Below, in pieces: positions 2,808 through 5,804 of a stretch of 64,000 nucleotides of DNA (its first letter is position 1; each line of letters opens with the position of its first letter). The position numbers and the translations under genes are program-made. The notes beneath the pieces were generated by a model. That model ran no database searches, was not told the DNA's origin, and saw only the letters and a program-made list of their open reading frames with translations. The stretch lies in contig NZ_AP017560.1 in the NCBI RefSeq assembly GCF_003967015.1, positions 1,736,001-1,800,000 on the forward strand. The letters are read 5' to 3'. Origin of the DNA: Pseudanabaena sp. ABRG5-3 (GTDB lineage Bacteria; Cyanobacteriota; Cyanobacteriia; Pseudanabaenales; Pseudanabaenaceae).

Positions 2808-3314
2808 GTGAAACAAATAAAATTACAACCATTAAATCAAGAGGTGGAGGTCGCAACAGAAAGTACTTTGCTTAGTGTTTTGCTGGAACAAGAAATGAAT
2901 GTACTTCAAGCCTGTGGTGGTCAGGGGCGATGTGCAACCTGTCATATATATGTTCAATCAGGCAAAGAGGCTCTAAGTCCCAAAAGTGAACAGGAAATAT
3001 TAACTCTGAGCTTTATCACTACCTCCAAGGAAAATTCGCGTTTGGCTTGTCAAGCAAGAGTTTTGCAGGATGGGTTGGTGATTGAAGTCCCTCAAGGCAT
3101 GTATATTGGCTCGCTTGGGGAATTAAAAAGCTTAATTGGGAAACGCGCTCAACAAAATTTAATCCATCCATTAACTGGTGAGGTTTTAGTTGAGGAAGGT
3201 AAGCTGATTTTGCGATCGGCTTTAGAAAAGATGACTGAAATTGATTCCACCTTTACGGCTGATTTAAGCCAAATGTTGTTGCCGTCAGAGAAATCTCAAG
3301 TTTTAAATAGGTAA
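2808..3314 (+). CDS. 2Fe-2S ferredoxin-like protein (second copy)
   Basis: 168 residues from a GTG start at 2808, right after the stop of the receiver-like gene. Cluster ligands are C36, C42, C45 and C81 (CGGQGRCATC; LACQA), exactly the numbering of the first ferredoxin. The extension repeats the same tail motif (HPLTGEVLVEEGKLI) and then adds about 30 further residues. The two proteins are clearly paralogues. Expected role: electron carrier in the photosystem II assembly cluster (compare slr0148/slr0150). Electron partners cannot be read from sequence. Confidence 0.87.
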   Translation: MKQIKLQPLNQEVEVATESTLLSVLLEQEMNVLQACGGQGRCATCHIYVQSGKEALSPKSEQEILTLSFITTSKENSRLACQARVLQDGLVIEVPQGMYIGSLGELKSLIGKRAQQNLIHPLTGEVLVEEGKLILRSALEKMTEIDSTFTADLSQMLLPSEKSQVLNR

Positions 3315-3381: not shown

Positions 3382-4113
3382 ATGCCAAAATTAAACACTA
3401 TACCTAACGGGGAAACGCTTATTTCGTTGACTTCTTTATCTCAAGTTTGTCATTTTAGTCGTCATACTTTTTTTAAATTTGATCAGTCTAGGGGACAAAT
3501 TCAGGACTGGAATCACCACAAATATGTATTAGCAAGTGATGATTTTATTGTGTCGTTGCTTAAGGGGCTAGAGCATGAAGTGGGGGAAGCTTCTGGTTGG
3601 TTGATGTATTTAATTGGTAAGGATTGGGGAACTGAGGATGCTAAAGATTTTAAAATTTGGTTCGAGAGGGATTATCACCTCAGTATTAACAAATCAAGTC
3701 TCAAATTTGCTTTGGAAACTTGGTGGTGGCCATTAACTTCCCAAGGTTGGGGAAAGTGGAATGTCGATCTCAGCTCTATTCGTGAAGGTTTTATTTTTAT
3801 CGATCTATTTGATTCTGCGGTAGCTAAGTCGATGGGGAATATTGGTAAGCCCGTATGTTTTCTCTATGCAGGACTACTGGCGGGTTTCTTTTCGGTAATG
3901 CTAAATCGTGGATTGAGTAGTACCGAAATTCAATGCTATTCCATGGGCAATAACTTTTGTCGGTTTTTGATCGGGTCTGAGACTCGTATTAAGGCAGCAG
4001 AGTTTTGGTTAAGCTCTGGTGCTACTGCCCAAGAGATTGAGCAAAGACTGTTAGATCAGGATATCTCCAATGGTAATGGTCTCAGCCAAGCCATGGAGAC
4101 AGGAGGTATTTAA
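3382..4113 (+). CDS. V4R-domain protein (first of two)
   Basis: 243 residues. The start is supported by AAGGAG at 3371-3376, five bases before the ATG. The C-terminal two thirds form a V4R (4-vinyl reductase-type) domain: a GWLMYLIG segment near 72-79, IFIDLFDSAVAKSMG near 138-152, YAGLLAGFFS near 162-171, and the closing motif GNNFCRFLIG at 189-198. Cysteines at 159, 185 and 193 lie in the region where V4R domains are thought to bind ligands or metals. In Synechocystis, Slr0144 and Slr0147 are V4R proteins of the PAP operon and have been suggested to handle tetrapyrroles or bilins; that role is inferred here. The next gene begins one base after its stop codon. Confidence 0.85.
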   Translation: MPKLNTIPNGETLISLTSLSQVCHFSRHTFFKFDQSRGQIQDWNHHKYVLASDDFIVSLLKGLEHEVGEASGWLMYLIGKDWGTEDAKDFKIWFERDYHLSINKSSLKFALETWWWPLTSQGWGKWNVDLSSIREGFIFIDLFDSAVAKSMGNIGKPVCFLYAGLLAGFFSVMLNRGLSSTEIQCYSMGNNFCRFLIGSETRIKAAEFWLSSGATAQEIEQRLLDQDISNGNGLSQAMETGGI

Positions 4114-4114
4114 G

Positions 4115-4492
4115 GTGAGGAAGCGTAATCGCAGTAGTAAGTTTTTTAAGAATGCGCTACAACGTTTGAATAGGTTGGGGCGATCAATTCTGAGATTGTT
4201 TAGAAACCTGTTCGCGCTCGATCTCCATCAGCCTAAACGATCGCCGCGATCGCAGAACAACGATGCCGAAATTGATGATCAATCCCATCTAAATAGTAAG
4301 CAAGTGAGCGCTATTTATCGTCCAGATCCTTTTTTGTTGGGTTTAGAAGATATGGAAGATTTGGAGTTTTTGACTACAAGGGAGTTTATTCAGAAAATTG
4401 AATGGAATGCGGAGAGTGAGGAAATTTTGCCTGCGAAGGAGGAGGATCTCACTTTATTAGAAGATTTACTGATTAACTTCCCTGAGGCTTAG
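4115..4492 (+). CDS. Small charged protein of the PAP-type cluster
   Basis: I start this at GTG 4115, because a strong AGGAGG (4101-4106) lies 8 bases upstream. A longer frame from ATG 4070 would overlap the V4R gene and leave that site unused. This gives about 125 residues. The N-terminus is strongly basic (VRKRNRSSKFFKNALQRLNR), and a hydrophobic-basic stretch (SILRLFRNLFALDLH) could lie along a membrane surface. The C-terminus is acidic (DPFLLGLEDMEDLEFL, then EEDLTLLEDLL). No known domain. The position suggests a counterpart of slr0145 or slr0146. The sharp basic/acidic split hints at a scaffold between membrane and protein partners, but that is inference. Confidence 0.7.
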   Translation: MRKRNRSSKFFKNALQRLNRLGRSILRLFRNLFALDLHQPKRSPRSQNNDAEIDDQSHLNSKQVSAIYRPDPFLLGLEDMEDLEFLTTREFIQKIEWNAESEEILPAKEEDLTLLEDLLINFPEA

Positions 4493-4638: not shown

Positions 4639-5109
4639 ATGCTTACTTTATTAGAAAATGTTTTAGACCGCGCCGATGGCTCATACATTGCACCTGAGGA
4701 TTTGCGAACTTTAGATCAGGCGATCGCTTCTTGGCAACTACGACGCAAAACCTACGATTTGATCCAAGTTAAGGAAAATGCCATCATTGCTCAAGTGATG
4801 CAGCAGATCCAAGTTACGGCTCCTGATGTGGCAGCCAAGGTGACTTTTGATGGTGGTAATAAGTGCAATCGGGATATGGCTTTGGTACTGCGCTACTGTG
4901 CCACGGCGATGTTGTTGCAGGATGAGGAACTCCTCAAAGATCGTTTGCTGTATTGGCTACAGAACATCATGATTGCTTTGAAAAATCAACGAGTTAATGA
5001 TTTTGTTTATCGCTCTTTGCAAAAATCCGTTCAGGAAAATCTGCCTAAAGAAAATGCGGATTTGCTACTGCCCTACATTGCGATCGCTCACCAATGGTTA
5101 AGCCAATGA
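4639..5109 (+). CDS. Phycobiliprotein-like subunit
   Basis: 156 residues, about the length of a phycobiliprotein subunit (~160). Residues 76-95 read CNRDMALVLRYCATAMLLQD, which matches the phycocyanin/allophycocyanin helix carrying the bilin-binding cysteine (family pattern C-x-R-D-x5-R-Y). Here that gives C76, R78, D79, R85 and Y86. The following LLKDRLLYWLQNIMIAL matches the family segment L-x-D-R-x-L-x-G-L-x-E-x-x-x-A-L, but the usual G-L-R-E-T-Y is replaced by W-L-Q-N-I-M. It is therefore a divergent, non-antenna member that may bind a bilin or act as an assembly factor. It lies between the small charged gene and the second V4R gene, whose ATG overlaps its stop codon. Confidence 0.8.
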   Translation: MLTLLENVLDRADGSYIAPEDLRTLDQAIASWQLRRKTYDLIQVKENAIIAQVMQQIQVTAPDVAAKVTFDGGNKCNRDMALVLRYCATAMLLQDEELLKDRLLYWLQNIMIALKNQRVNDFVYRSLQKSVQENLPKENADLLLPYIAIAHQWLSQ

Positions 5110-5804
5110 CAAATAATTCAATTCCCGGAAATTATTTCTCGCCTCGTTTTTATGTTAAGTCCGATCCTGCAACGGGTTTACTGTCTACTCGTCAAGGCGA
5201 TCGCCTCATTGCGATACCAGATTTTTTGTTACGAAGTATCCATCGCGCTTTGCAGTCTGAAGCAGGACAGGCAGGAACTTTGGCACTCTACACCTTTGGC
5301 TTTGGCTGGGGGGGATCTTTTTATGATCACATTCGTGGTGAGATCGAATCCTATAAAGGCGCAACGATTATGGCAACTAATGCTGTAGAGTTTCTTGCCA
5401 CGATGCGCCAACTTTGGACAGTGCATGGTATGGGAACTTTGACCTTGGACTTTAGCCATCGTCAACATGGCTTGATTGTAGTTACGACCGAAAATTCGGT
5501 ATTAACTACAGGTAGTGAAATTGGCTTGCAGTCAGGAAATTTGCCTTGGCATCAGCTACAGGCAGGATTTATTGCTGCATGGTTTTCACGCTGGGCAGGG
5601 AAAGATATTCGCGCCTGTGCTACGGATTGGTCAGCACAAGCTGAGGTAAGTACTACGCAGTCTCTAGATAGTTCTACTACTCCTAGTCAGGACAATTACA
5701 CACGCTTTATTGTAGGAATAAACAGCAAGATCCAACAGGTGGAGCCTTGGGTAAAGCAGGGATTACGCACGACGGAGATTTTGGATAAATTAACAGCCAA
5801 TTAA
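5106..5804 (+). CDS. V4R-domain protein (second of two)
   Basis: About 232 residues from ATG 5106, which overlaps the preceding stop as ATGA and implies translational coupling; an in-frame ATG at 5094 is the alternative. The domain resembles the other V4R protein: ALYTFGFGWGGSFYDHI near the start, a GTLTLDFSHRQHGLIVV strand pair, then LQAGFIAAWFSRWAGKDIRACATDW, where the GxxxxxWFSRWAG helix and the final C match the V4R end. A C-terminal helix (VEPWVKQGLRTTEILDKL) parallels LSSGATAQEIEQRL of the first copy. Probably the Slr0144/Slr0147-type partner in photosystem II assembly. Ligand unknown. Confidence 0.83.
   Translation: MTNNSIPGNYFSPRFYVKSDPATGLLSTRQGDRLIAIPDFLLRSIHRALQSEAGQAGTLALYTFGFGWGGSFYDHIRGEIESYKGATIMATNAVEFLATMRQLWTVHGMGTLTLDFSHRQHGLIVVTTENSVLTTGSEIGLQSGNLPWHQLQAGFIAAWFSRWAGKDIRACATDWSAQAEVSTTQSLDSSTTPSQDNYTRFIVGINSKIQQVEPWVKQGLRTTEILDKLTAN

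Follow-up and report, generated by a model that had tools for sequence, protein, structure and literature searches.

A globin with a conserved bilin-attachment motif in a V4R/ferredoxin gene cluster of Pseudanabaena sp. ABRG5-3

The gene cluster and its globin

The window analysed here is a stretch of 64,000 nucleotides from Pseudanabaena sp. ABRG5-3 (contig NZ_AP017560.1, positions 1,736,001 to 1,800,000), near the beginning of which lie seven genes on the forward strand. In order, with their first positions, they encode a ferredoxin (1120), a protein with a receiver fold (1934), another ferredoxin (2808), the V4R protein V4R-A (3382), a small charged protein (4070), a phycobiliprotein-like globin (4639), and a second V4R-type protein, V4R-B (5106). 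The open reading frame that follows is on the minus strand and reads as photolyase-like. Both ferredoxins (1120–1560 and 2808–3314, the latter with a GTG start) are [2Fe-2S] proteins of the Cx5CxxC...C type, each with cysteines at positions 36, 42, 45 and 81 and with PF00111 matches of 29.1 bits (cut-off 21) and 46.8 bits, respectively; all 75 Fe-S proteins annotated across the loci compared below are of this type. The receiver-fold protein (1934–2800) also has a conserved C-terminal domain of unnamed type. Its Response_reg match is weak (20.2 bits, below the cut-off of 30.2), and receiver domains match its model (pLDDT 72.9) at VIA Z 19.0, rmsd 2.0, over 127 residues. Gly78, invariant in 11 aligned rows, appears from a reading of the alignment to occupy the position expected of the phosphoacceptor aspartate.

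V4R-A (3382–4113) is recognised by PF02830 at 60.9 bits, against a cut-off of 31. V4R-B (5106–5804; a longer frame, from 5094, is also open) has no Pfam match at an E-value of 1, and a search with its relatives against solved structures gave a single match at E 0.41 and nothing better; it is considered a V4R homologue because its family alignment matches that of the V4R-A family in a profile-profile comparison (hhalign) with 99.7% probability. Its ATG overlaps the stop codon of the globin gene as ATGA, an arrangement found in 10 of 10 close relatives and in none of the seven other T clusters (see below) that were read, in which the globin gene ends in TAA. The first-pass annotation had two V4R genes adjoining the globin gene; this is right for V4R-B, with its 4-nt overlap, while V4R-A lies one gene away. 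The intervening gene, for the small charged protein (4070–4492), has no Pfam match, and its likelier start is the GTG at 4115, behind AGGAGG at 4101–4106. The protein bears one FFxxxxW-type motif (TTREFIQKIEW), which is recurrent at the same position elsewhere: small charged proteins encoded between V4R-A and the globin contain a [ST]VxxFFxxxNW-like motif, either once or twice. The FFxxxxW type is present in 53 of 61 distinct small frames at this place (0.8 expected after shuffling), a count that is descriptive, since the expression was written after several of the small proteins had been viewed, and that leaves eight loci without a small frame outside the 61.

The globin gene runs on the forward strand from its ATG at 4639 to a TGA at 5109 and encodes 156 amino acids. 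The first-pass annotation had recognised it as phycobiliprotein-like from C76-x-R78-D79, R85-Y86 and an L-x-D-R-x-L stretch, and all of these are present, the CxRD bilin-attachment motif as C76-N77-R78-D79 (codons 4864–4875) and the last as LKDRLL. PF00502 (Phycobilisome), for which the curated cut-off is 22.2 bits, matches it at 50.3 bits (E 3.3e-13), and the resemblance to that family is therefore not a matter of chance. A globin-like fold had been set as a test of this assignment. The AlphaFold2 model, built on a 16-sequence alignment (mean pLDDT 86.3, pTM 0.79), is all helix and phycobiliprotein-like, and its best solved matches are phycobiliproteins, with 8uhe chain I at VIA-align Z 17.8, rmsd 3.8, over 153 residues; allophycocyanin-type chains match along the whole length in VIA-align, and the best solved match in Foldseek is likewise a phycobiliprotein (E 3.0e-05). 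The biliverdin-bound smURFP mutant 6fzn matches the globin part of the model (Z 16.8, rmsd 2.0, 125 residues). At the level of sequence, phmmer gives weak matches in the PDB, of which the best is a phycocyanin beta chain (E 8.7e-05), and with a profile of 16 relatives the best match improves to E 1.6e-11; among the 60 listed of 130 PDB profile matches, all are phycobiliproteins or phycobilisome components by name, save one 'bacterial fluorescent protein' (8u0f). For 10 close orthologues, from Pseudanabaena and one record named Phormidium tenue, the median pairwise dN/dS of the globin is 0.071 (range 0.041–0.189; 41 of 45 pairs usable), so the gene is under strong purifying selection, and the open reading frame, family match, fold and dN/dS together establish it as real and constrained.

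Relation to published globin clusters and to antenna subunits

Gene clusters of this kind are already known. A 2023 paper (PMC10151467) describes bilin biosynthesis-associated globins (BBAGs), reports that the genes of cyanobacterial BBAGs lie together with those for two V4R proteins and one 2Fe-2S protein, and names slr0144–slr0149 of Synechocystis as an example; some cyanobacterial BBAGs have the CXRD motif, and BBAGs and their clusters are duplicated in places. The window cluster resembles these slr0144–slr0149-type systems in its PF00502 globin, two V4R proteins and 2Fe-2S proteins, and in a CXRD motif that part of the family has, and the globin almost certainly belongs to the cyanobacterial BBAG family. 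As cyanobacterial BBAG clusters have been described, the cluster type is not new; what is added here is a lineage, T, with one globin. In the same paper, bilin uptake without lyases is reported for BBAG-3 and, poorly, for BBAG-1, with quantum yields of 3–7% for one BBAG-3 and two BBAG-2 proteins; none of four proteins for which spectra are reported there is a cyanobacterial BBAG. The clusters of heterotrophic BBAG-1 and BBAG-3 are described there as containing pre-PcyA and usually a heme oxygenase. They share with the window cluster a CXRD globin with a V4R pair and an Fe-S protein but, by that published description, differ from it in their pre-PcyA and heme oxygenase genes, which the window cluster lacks; the nearest sequence stand-in for them here is the locus L126, described below.

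Further published work concerns Synechocystis. There, slr0144 and slr0147 encode V4R proteins, V4R domains being said to bind small hydrophobic molecules such as chlorophyll precursors (PMC13326532); slr0148 and slr0150 encode ferredoxins, and deleted alleles of slr0148 failed to segregate (PMC8887894); slr0149 is, by published description, phycobiliprotein-related. Affinity purification with GFP-tagged Slr0149 supported interactions among Slr0144–Slr0149, which are described as thylakoid-located and mainly active in photosynthetic repair (PMC9880817). The slr0144–slr0152 operon was reported to be down-regulated under iron depletion and oxidative stress and was tied first to PSI assembly, and its products were reported to stabilise PSII intermediates, with the TPR protein Slr0151 most directly linked to PSII (PMC4853703); in a review, slr0144–0152 is listed with slower growth and reduced PSII activity (PMC9145668).

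This pap operon and the window cluster have in common a core of V4R, small protein, globin, V4R and Fe-S genes. The last gene of the operon, slr0152, we take to be that of a Ser/Thr kinase. Unlike the pap operon, the window cluster has no plant-type ferredoxin, TPR protein or Ser/Thr kinase behind it; these are present in another locus read here, L121, whose order is V4R, small protein, PF00502, V4R, Fe-S, PF00502, plant-type ferredoxin, TPR protein and kinase, the second to fourth names resting partly on profiles built here. As judged from sequence, the L121 order matches the published descriptions of slr0144, slr0147, slr0148, slr0149, slr0150 and Slr0151. The first-pass label of a 'PSII-assembly-type cluster' thus holds for the slr0144–0149-like core, and is too broad otherwise, as the window cluster belongs to a separate lineage and no counterparts of slr0150–slr0152, which include the gene most directly linked to PSII (PMC4853703), lie beside it.

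In the literature, a V4R tree from 2026 contains 311 Slr0144/Slr0147 sequences from a genome set that includes dereplicated Pseudanabaenales, and may hold the V4R genes of T clusters; it places V4R duplications at the base of thylakoid-bearing cyanobacteria and within the Thermostichales, and the main text makes no mention of slr0146, slr0149 or phycobiliproteins (PMC13326532). The words Pseudanabaena, pentapeptide, receiver and slr0145 are absent from the main text of PMC10151467, whose remark on duplication may cover T-type clusters in its supplement. Judged by title and abstract, no treatment of a one-globin BBAG lineage was found in the open-access literature.

The phycobiliprotein fold, the CxRD motif and the fact that the best PDB sequence matches are antenna beta chains would all fit a diverged allophycocyanin-like light-harvesting subunit encoded outside the antenna operons, and the likeness to allophycocyanin and phycocyanin subunits extends to the N-terminal helices and to R35 and R85. 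Against this, the five NCBIfam antenna equivalog families that match the globin do so far below their cut-offs (best 29.4 bits, with 279.3 required). The globin differs from four antenna subunits of its own genome in a loop before the Cys helix that is four residues shorter, in W106 (codon 4954–4956) for Gly and Y39 for Val/Ser, and in the absence of antenna neighbours, and Pfam finds no phycobilisome linker or lyase among the seven cluster genes scanned. Of the 108 BBAG-type rows in the set compared here, 106 have Trp106 and 107 have Tyr39, so that the two residues can be read as marks of the BBAG-type group. The genome already has eight strong antenna-type PF00502 places and an ApcE-like frame of 922 amino acids (subunit names by reading), and in the globin tree a 100/100 branch, at which long branches meet, parts the four antenna subunits from the 108 BBAG-like rows. 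On the equivalog cut-offs, the gene context and the tree, the antenna subunit was rejected and is considered extremely improbable; the neighbours are ferredoxin, V4R, small-protein and receiver-fold genes, and the earlier view that the gene is not among antenna genes and may not encode an antenna subunit is borne out.

Three further PF00502 places in the same genome are of other kinds. An orphan globin at L010 1450–1938 (C1:1004609), with a relative in L040, has CKYD for CxRD and lies beside a frame that reads as phycobilisome-linker-like, and distant matches of 48.1 and 23 bits lie within longer proteins at L013 1330–2046 and L016 1453–2592, respectively.

Two cluster designs and the one-globin lineage

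Of 386 genomes sampled from the phylum, 56 have the cluster as detected by a V4R-B profile (E 1e-10). Sixty stretches were read, from 52 of these 56 (all except G091, G139, G287 and G293) and from G027, together with 14 named loci; they were annotated with profiles built here, and the repeats L057, L059 and L088 were left out of the counts. In the common design, V4R-A, the small protein, a globin in what is here called slot 1, and V4R-B follow one another, with a ferredoxin and a second, slot-2 globin before or behind them. Two globins lie within the stretch in 39 of 55 common-type loci and one in the other 16, whose slot-2 globin may lie elsewhere, as in the window's own genome. That genome contains, besides its T cluster, one common-type cluster (L069) with a Cys-less slot-1 globin and, at L011 1471–1956 (C1:3686359), a slot-2-type globin that stands alone, with Trp in place of the Cys and no V4R gene seen in the 3.4-kb locus; comparable Trp forms are found within clusters elsewhere. 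In L121 the slot-1 globin has no Cys (PF00502 20.4 bits), and the Cys-bearing globin comes after the ferredoxin.

In the T design, that of the window, all 17 clusters have a single globin, placed between the V4R genes; 15 of the 17 have a receiver-fold-type gene and 11, as read, have two ferredoxins. The receiver-fold gene belongs to a family in which one conserved C-terminal domain, with no Pfam name, is joined to differing N-terminal parts: in T clusters (in the window, 1934–2800) a receiver fold in which Gly occupies the expected phosphoacceptor position, at L105 3077–3910 and L111 3443–4279 pentapeptide repeats (PF00805), and at L069 8776–9756 and in L060 an N-terminus unnamed by Pfam. Matches above 100 bits to the profile of this family occur in 19 of 55 common-type loci, those below about 60 bits being pentapeptide proteins that may have been drawn in by the repeat alone.

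Several loci depart from both designs. Between V4R-A and V4R-B, L058, L076 and L078 have tandem slot-1 globins, one with CRRD and one very divergent and without Cys, and L076 and L078 come from genomes that also contain another cluster (L077, L079), with CRRH. Two clusters were found outside the cyanobacterial class, in G066 (L126) and in G088 (L125, which ends at a contig end). L126 (2116–9288; same phylum, other class) has the order Fe-S, V4R-A, motif-bearing small protein, globin and V4R-B, with a gene for heme oxygenase (PF01126, 51.2 bits) directly behind; a second globin, of 268 amino acids, lies nearby, and both globins lack the Cys.

The marker residues differ between the groups. Position 76 is Cys in all 17 T globins, in 26 of 37 slot-2 globins (with Trp in ten and Phe in one) and in 11 of 54 globins of the slot-1 clade, which also includes two orphan globins and L126; Asp79 is found in 17/17, 36/37 and 8/54, respectively, and R78 in 16 of 17 T globins, in which the lowest pairwise identity is 36%. 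The clades were taken from the tree, and the rows are related, so that these are counts and not probabilities. Conservation of C76, R78 and D79 among orthologues, on which the first-pass annotation had staked its reading, is therefore seen within the T lineage; in the same position of other clusters, which it had proposed to survey, the Cys is mostly absent (11/54), and the Cys-bearing globin there is mostly the one beside the ferredoxin (26/37). With the Cys gone from most slot-1 and some slot-2 globins, one or both globins of many common clusters must do without a covalently bound bilin. The raw table, in which 47 rows have both Cys and Asp, 40 neither, 14 Asp only and 7 Cys only, looks suggestive of linked loss; on independent pairs of the tree the two losses showed no association, and linked loss as a sign of pocket decay is not supported.

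The globin tree, computed without the motif columns, comprises 112 of 123 sequences; the fragments L110 5381 and L125, five rows of the repeats L057, L059 and L088, L126 2116 and the divergent tandem globins of L058, L076 and L078 were left out. Three clades join at an open fork: T, with 17 rows and support of 94/95 (not starred); slot 2, with 37 rows and 98/100 (starred); and the slot-1 globins together with their relatives, with 54 rows and 96/83 (starred). A tree of the neighbours V4R-A, V4R-B and Fe-S (68 rows; a quick tree with no mixture model, which skipped the three repeats and also L081, L110, L125 and L127, as not having one V4R-A and one V4R-B) sets the same 17 T clusters apart from the other 51 with an SH-aLRT of 100, the root position of T resting on one distant long row, L126. 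Since the same 17-member group appears in both trees, the T globin has probably travelled with its neighbours for a long time. Separation in both trees, a single globin (17/17), Cys with Asp in 17 of 17, two ferredoxins (11/17) and a receiver-fold protein (15/17) are what distinguish T from the clusters of slr0144–slr0149 type, and the 17 T clusters likewise group apart from the common, slr0144–0149-like clusters when these are taken as pap-type.

By best hits, the T globin is present in 11 of 26 genomes of the window's Pseudanabaena-type genus, and of nine other genomes in the family five have it as well (E 1.5e-33 or lower); named near neighbours of the window globin are mostly Pseudanabaena records. 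T clusters also occur in G243 and G110, which belong to two further families, and in L054, from an uncultured cyanobacterium. No T cluster was found in 15 of the 26 Pseudanabaena genomes, two of them less than 90% complete, nor in 5 of the 52 cluster-bearing genomes read (of 56), and the absence of the cluster from these genomes marks it as dispensable. A tie to phycoerythrin was considered and rejected (4 of 11 genomes with the T cluster against 8 of 15 without it, p = 0.45), as was a viral origin: a scan of viral contigs gave 83 pattern-matching stretches, none confirmed as a relative, and at E-values up to 0.001 there was no match to a viral fold. In G020, PF05996 (PcyA) found no match; the genome has a full antenna set, given which true absence of PcyA was rejected and an assembly gap is likelier.

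G243 and G110 are informative in that each has one V4R pair and, at E 0.01, nine PF00502 places: six strong antenna-type, two in an ApcE-like frame, and the T globin (subunit names by reading). No other BBAG was found in either genome with PF00502 at E 0.01, a search that might miss a globin as diverged as the slot-1 globin of L121. From these two genomes it appears that the T globin needs no second BBAG in order to serve.

Proposed role and alternatives

The reading favoured on balance is that the globin carries a covalent bilin as a non-antenna subunit of a V4R/ferredoxin complex, and that this complex handles tetrapyrroles in photosystem assembly or repair. A linear tetrapyrrole, most likely phycocyanobilin, would be attached to C76 and held by R78 and D79, and covalent binding at C76 in vivo is quite probable. 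The globin would be one subunit of a small complex with the two V4R proteins, the 2Fe-2S ferredoxins and the motif-bearing small linker, and physical association with its V4R and Fe-S neighbours seems rather likely. The bound bilin would be weakly fluorescent, feed no antenna, and make the complex responsive to bilin supply; the V4R pair would hold chlorophyll-type tetrapyrroles and the ferredoxin supply electrons, so that tetrapyrrole handling would be matched to photosystem assembly or repair. Such bilin gating of tetrapyrrole handling is put forward as a tentative and somewhat doubtful suggestion. A bilin-binding role outside the antenna fits the published behaviour of BBAG-1 and BBAG-3 and the low fluorescence reported for BBAGs (PMC10151467).

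Two other roles deserve consideration. The globin might be an apo-scaffold that carries no bilin and serves the V4R/Fe-S complex as a dimerising subunit, with CxRD kept for structure, metal or redox. Most slot-1 relatives have lost the Cys and many the Asp, so that bilin is not needed there in common clusters, and W106 and Y39 are kept in Cys-plus and Cys-minus members alike; on the other hand, C76 and D79 are invariant in T down to the lowest pairwise identity, and BBAG-1 and BBAG-3, which bear CXRD, do bind bilin (PMC10151467). With this evidence a bilin-free scaffold is judged unlikely. Alternatively, the protein could be a carrier or store that passes phycocyanobilin from PcyA to lyases or to phytochrome-type receptors. 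The heme oxygenase gene in the cluster of a relative (G066) and the pre-PcyA of published clusters (PMC10151467) point in this direction, and ferredoxins could feed both enzymes. But a covalent thioether to Cys would, it can be reasoned, make a poor temporary store; Pfam finds neither a heme oxygenase nor an FDBR among the seven genes of the window cluster; and antenna genes are present both in genomes with T clusters (G003, G018, G020) and in one without any V4R cluster (G010). A carrier is accordingly thought improbable.

Returning to the covalent bilin subunit, it is tempting to suggest that BBAG clusters come in two designs. The common one would divide labour in an alpha/beta-like manner between a bilin-bearing or Trp-substituted globin by the ferredoxin and another, without bilin, that lies between the V4R genes, while in T one bilin-bearing globin, as a homo-oligomer, would do both jobs; in both, the FFxxxxW linker would tie the globin to V4R, and a protein with interchangeable input (receiver, pentapeptide or unassigned N-terminus) would connect the cluster to cell signals. 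It is doubtful that all parts of this proposal hold together. If they do, these clusters would encode a bilin- and redox-linked tetrapyrrole-handling machine for photosystem biogenesis. The window's genome allows a Cys-plus and a Cys-minus cluster to be compared inside one organism, and with one globin, an intact site and no other BBAG found in two genomes, the T lineage removes the redundancy of two-globin clusters and reduces the question to one gene and one cysteine.
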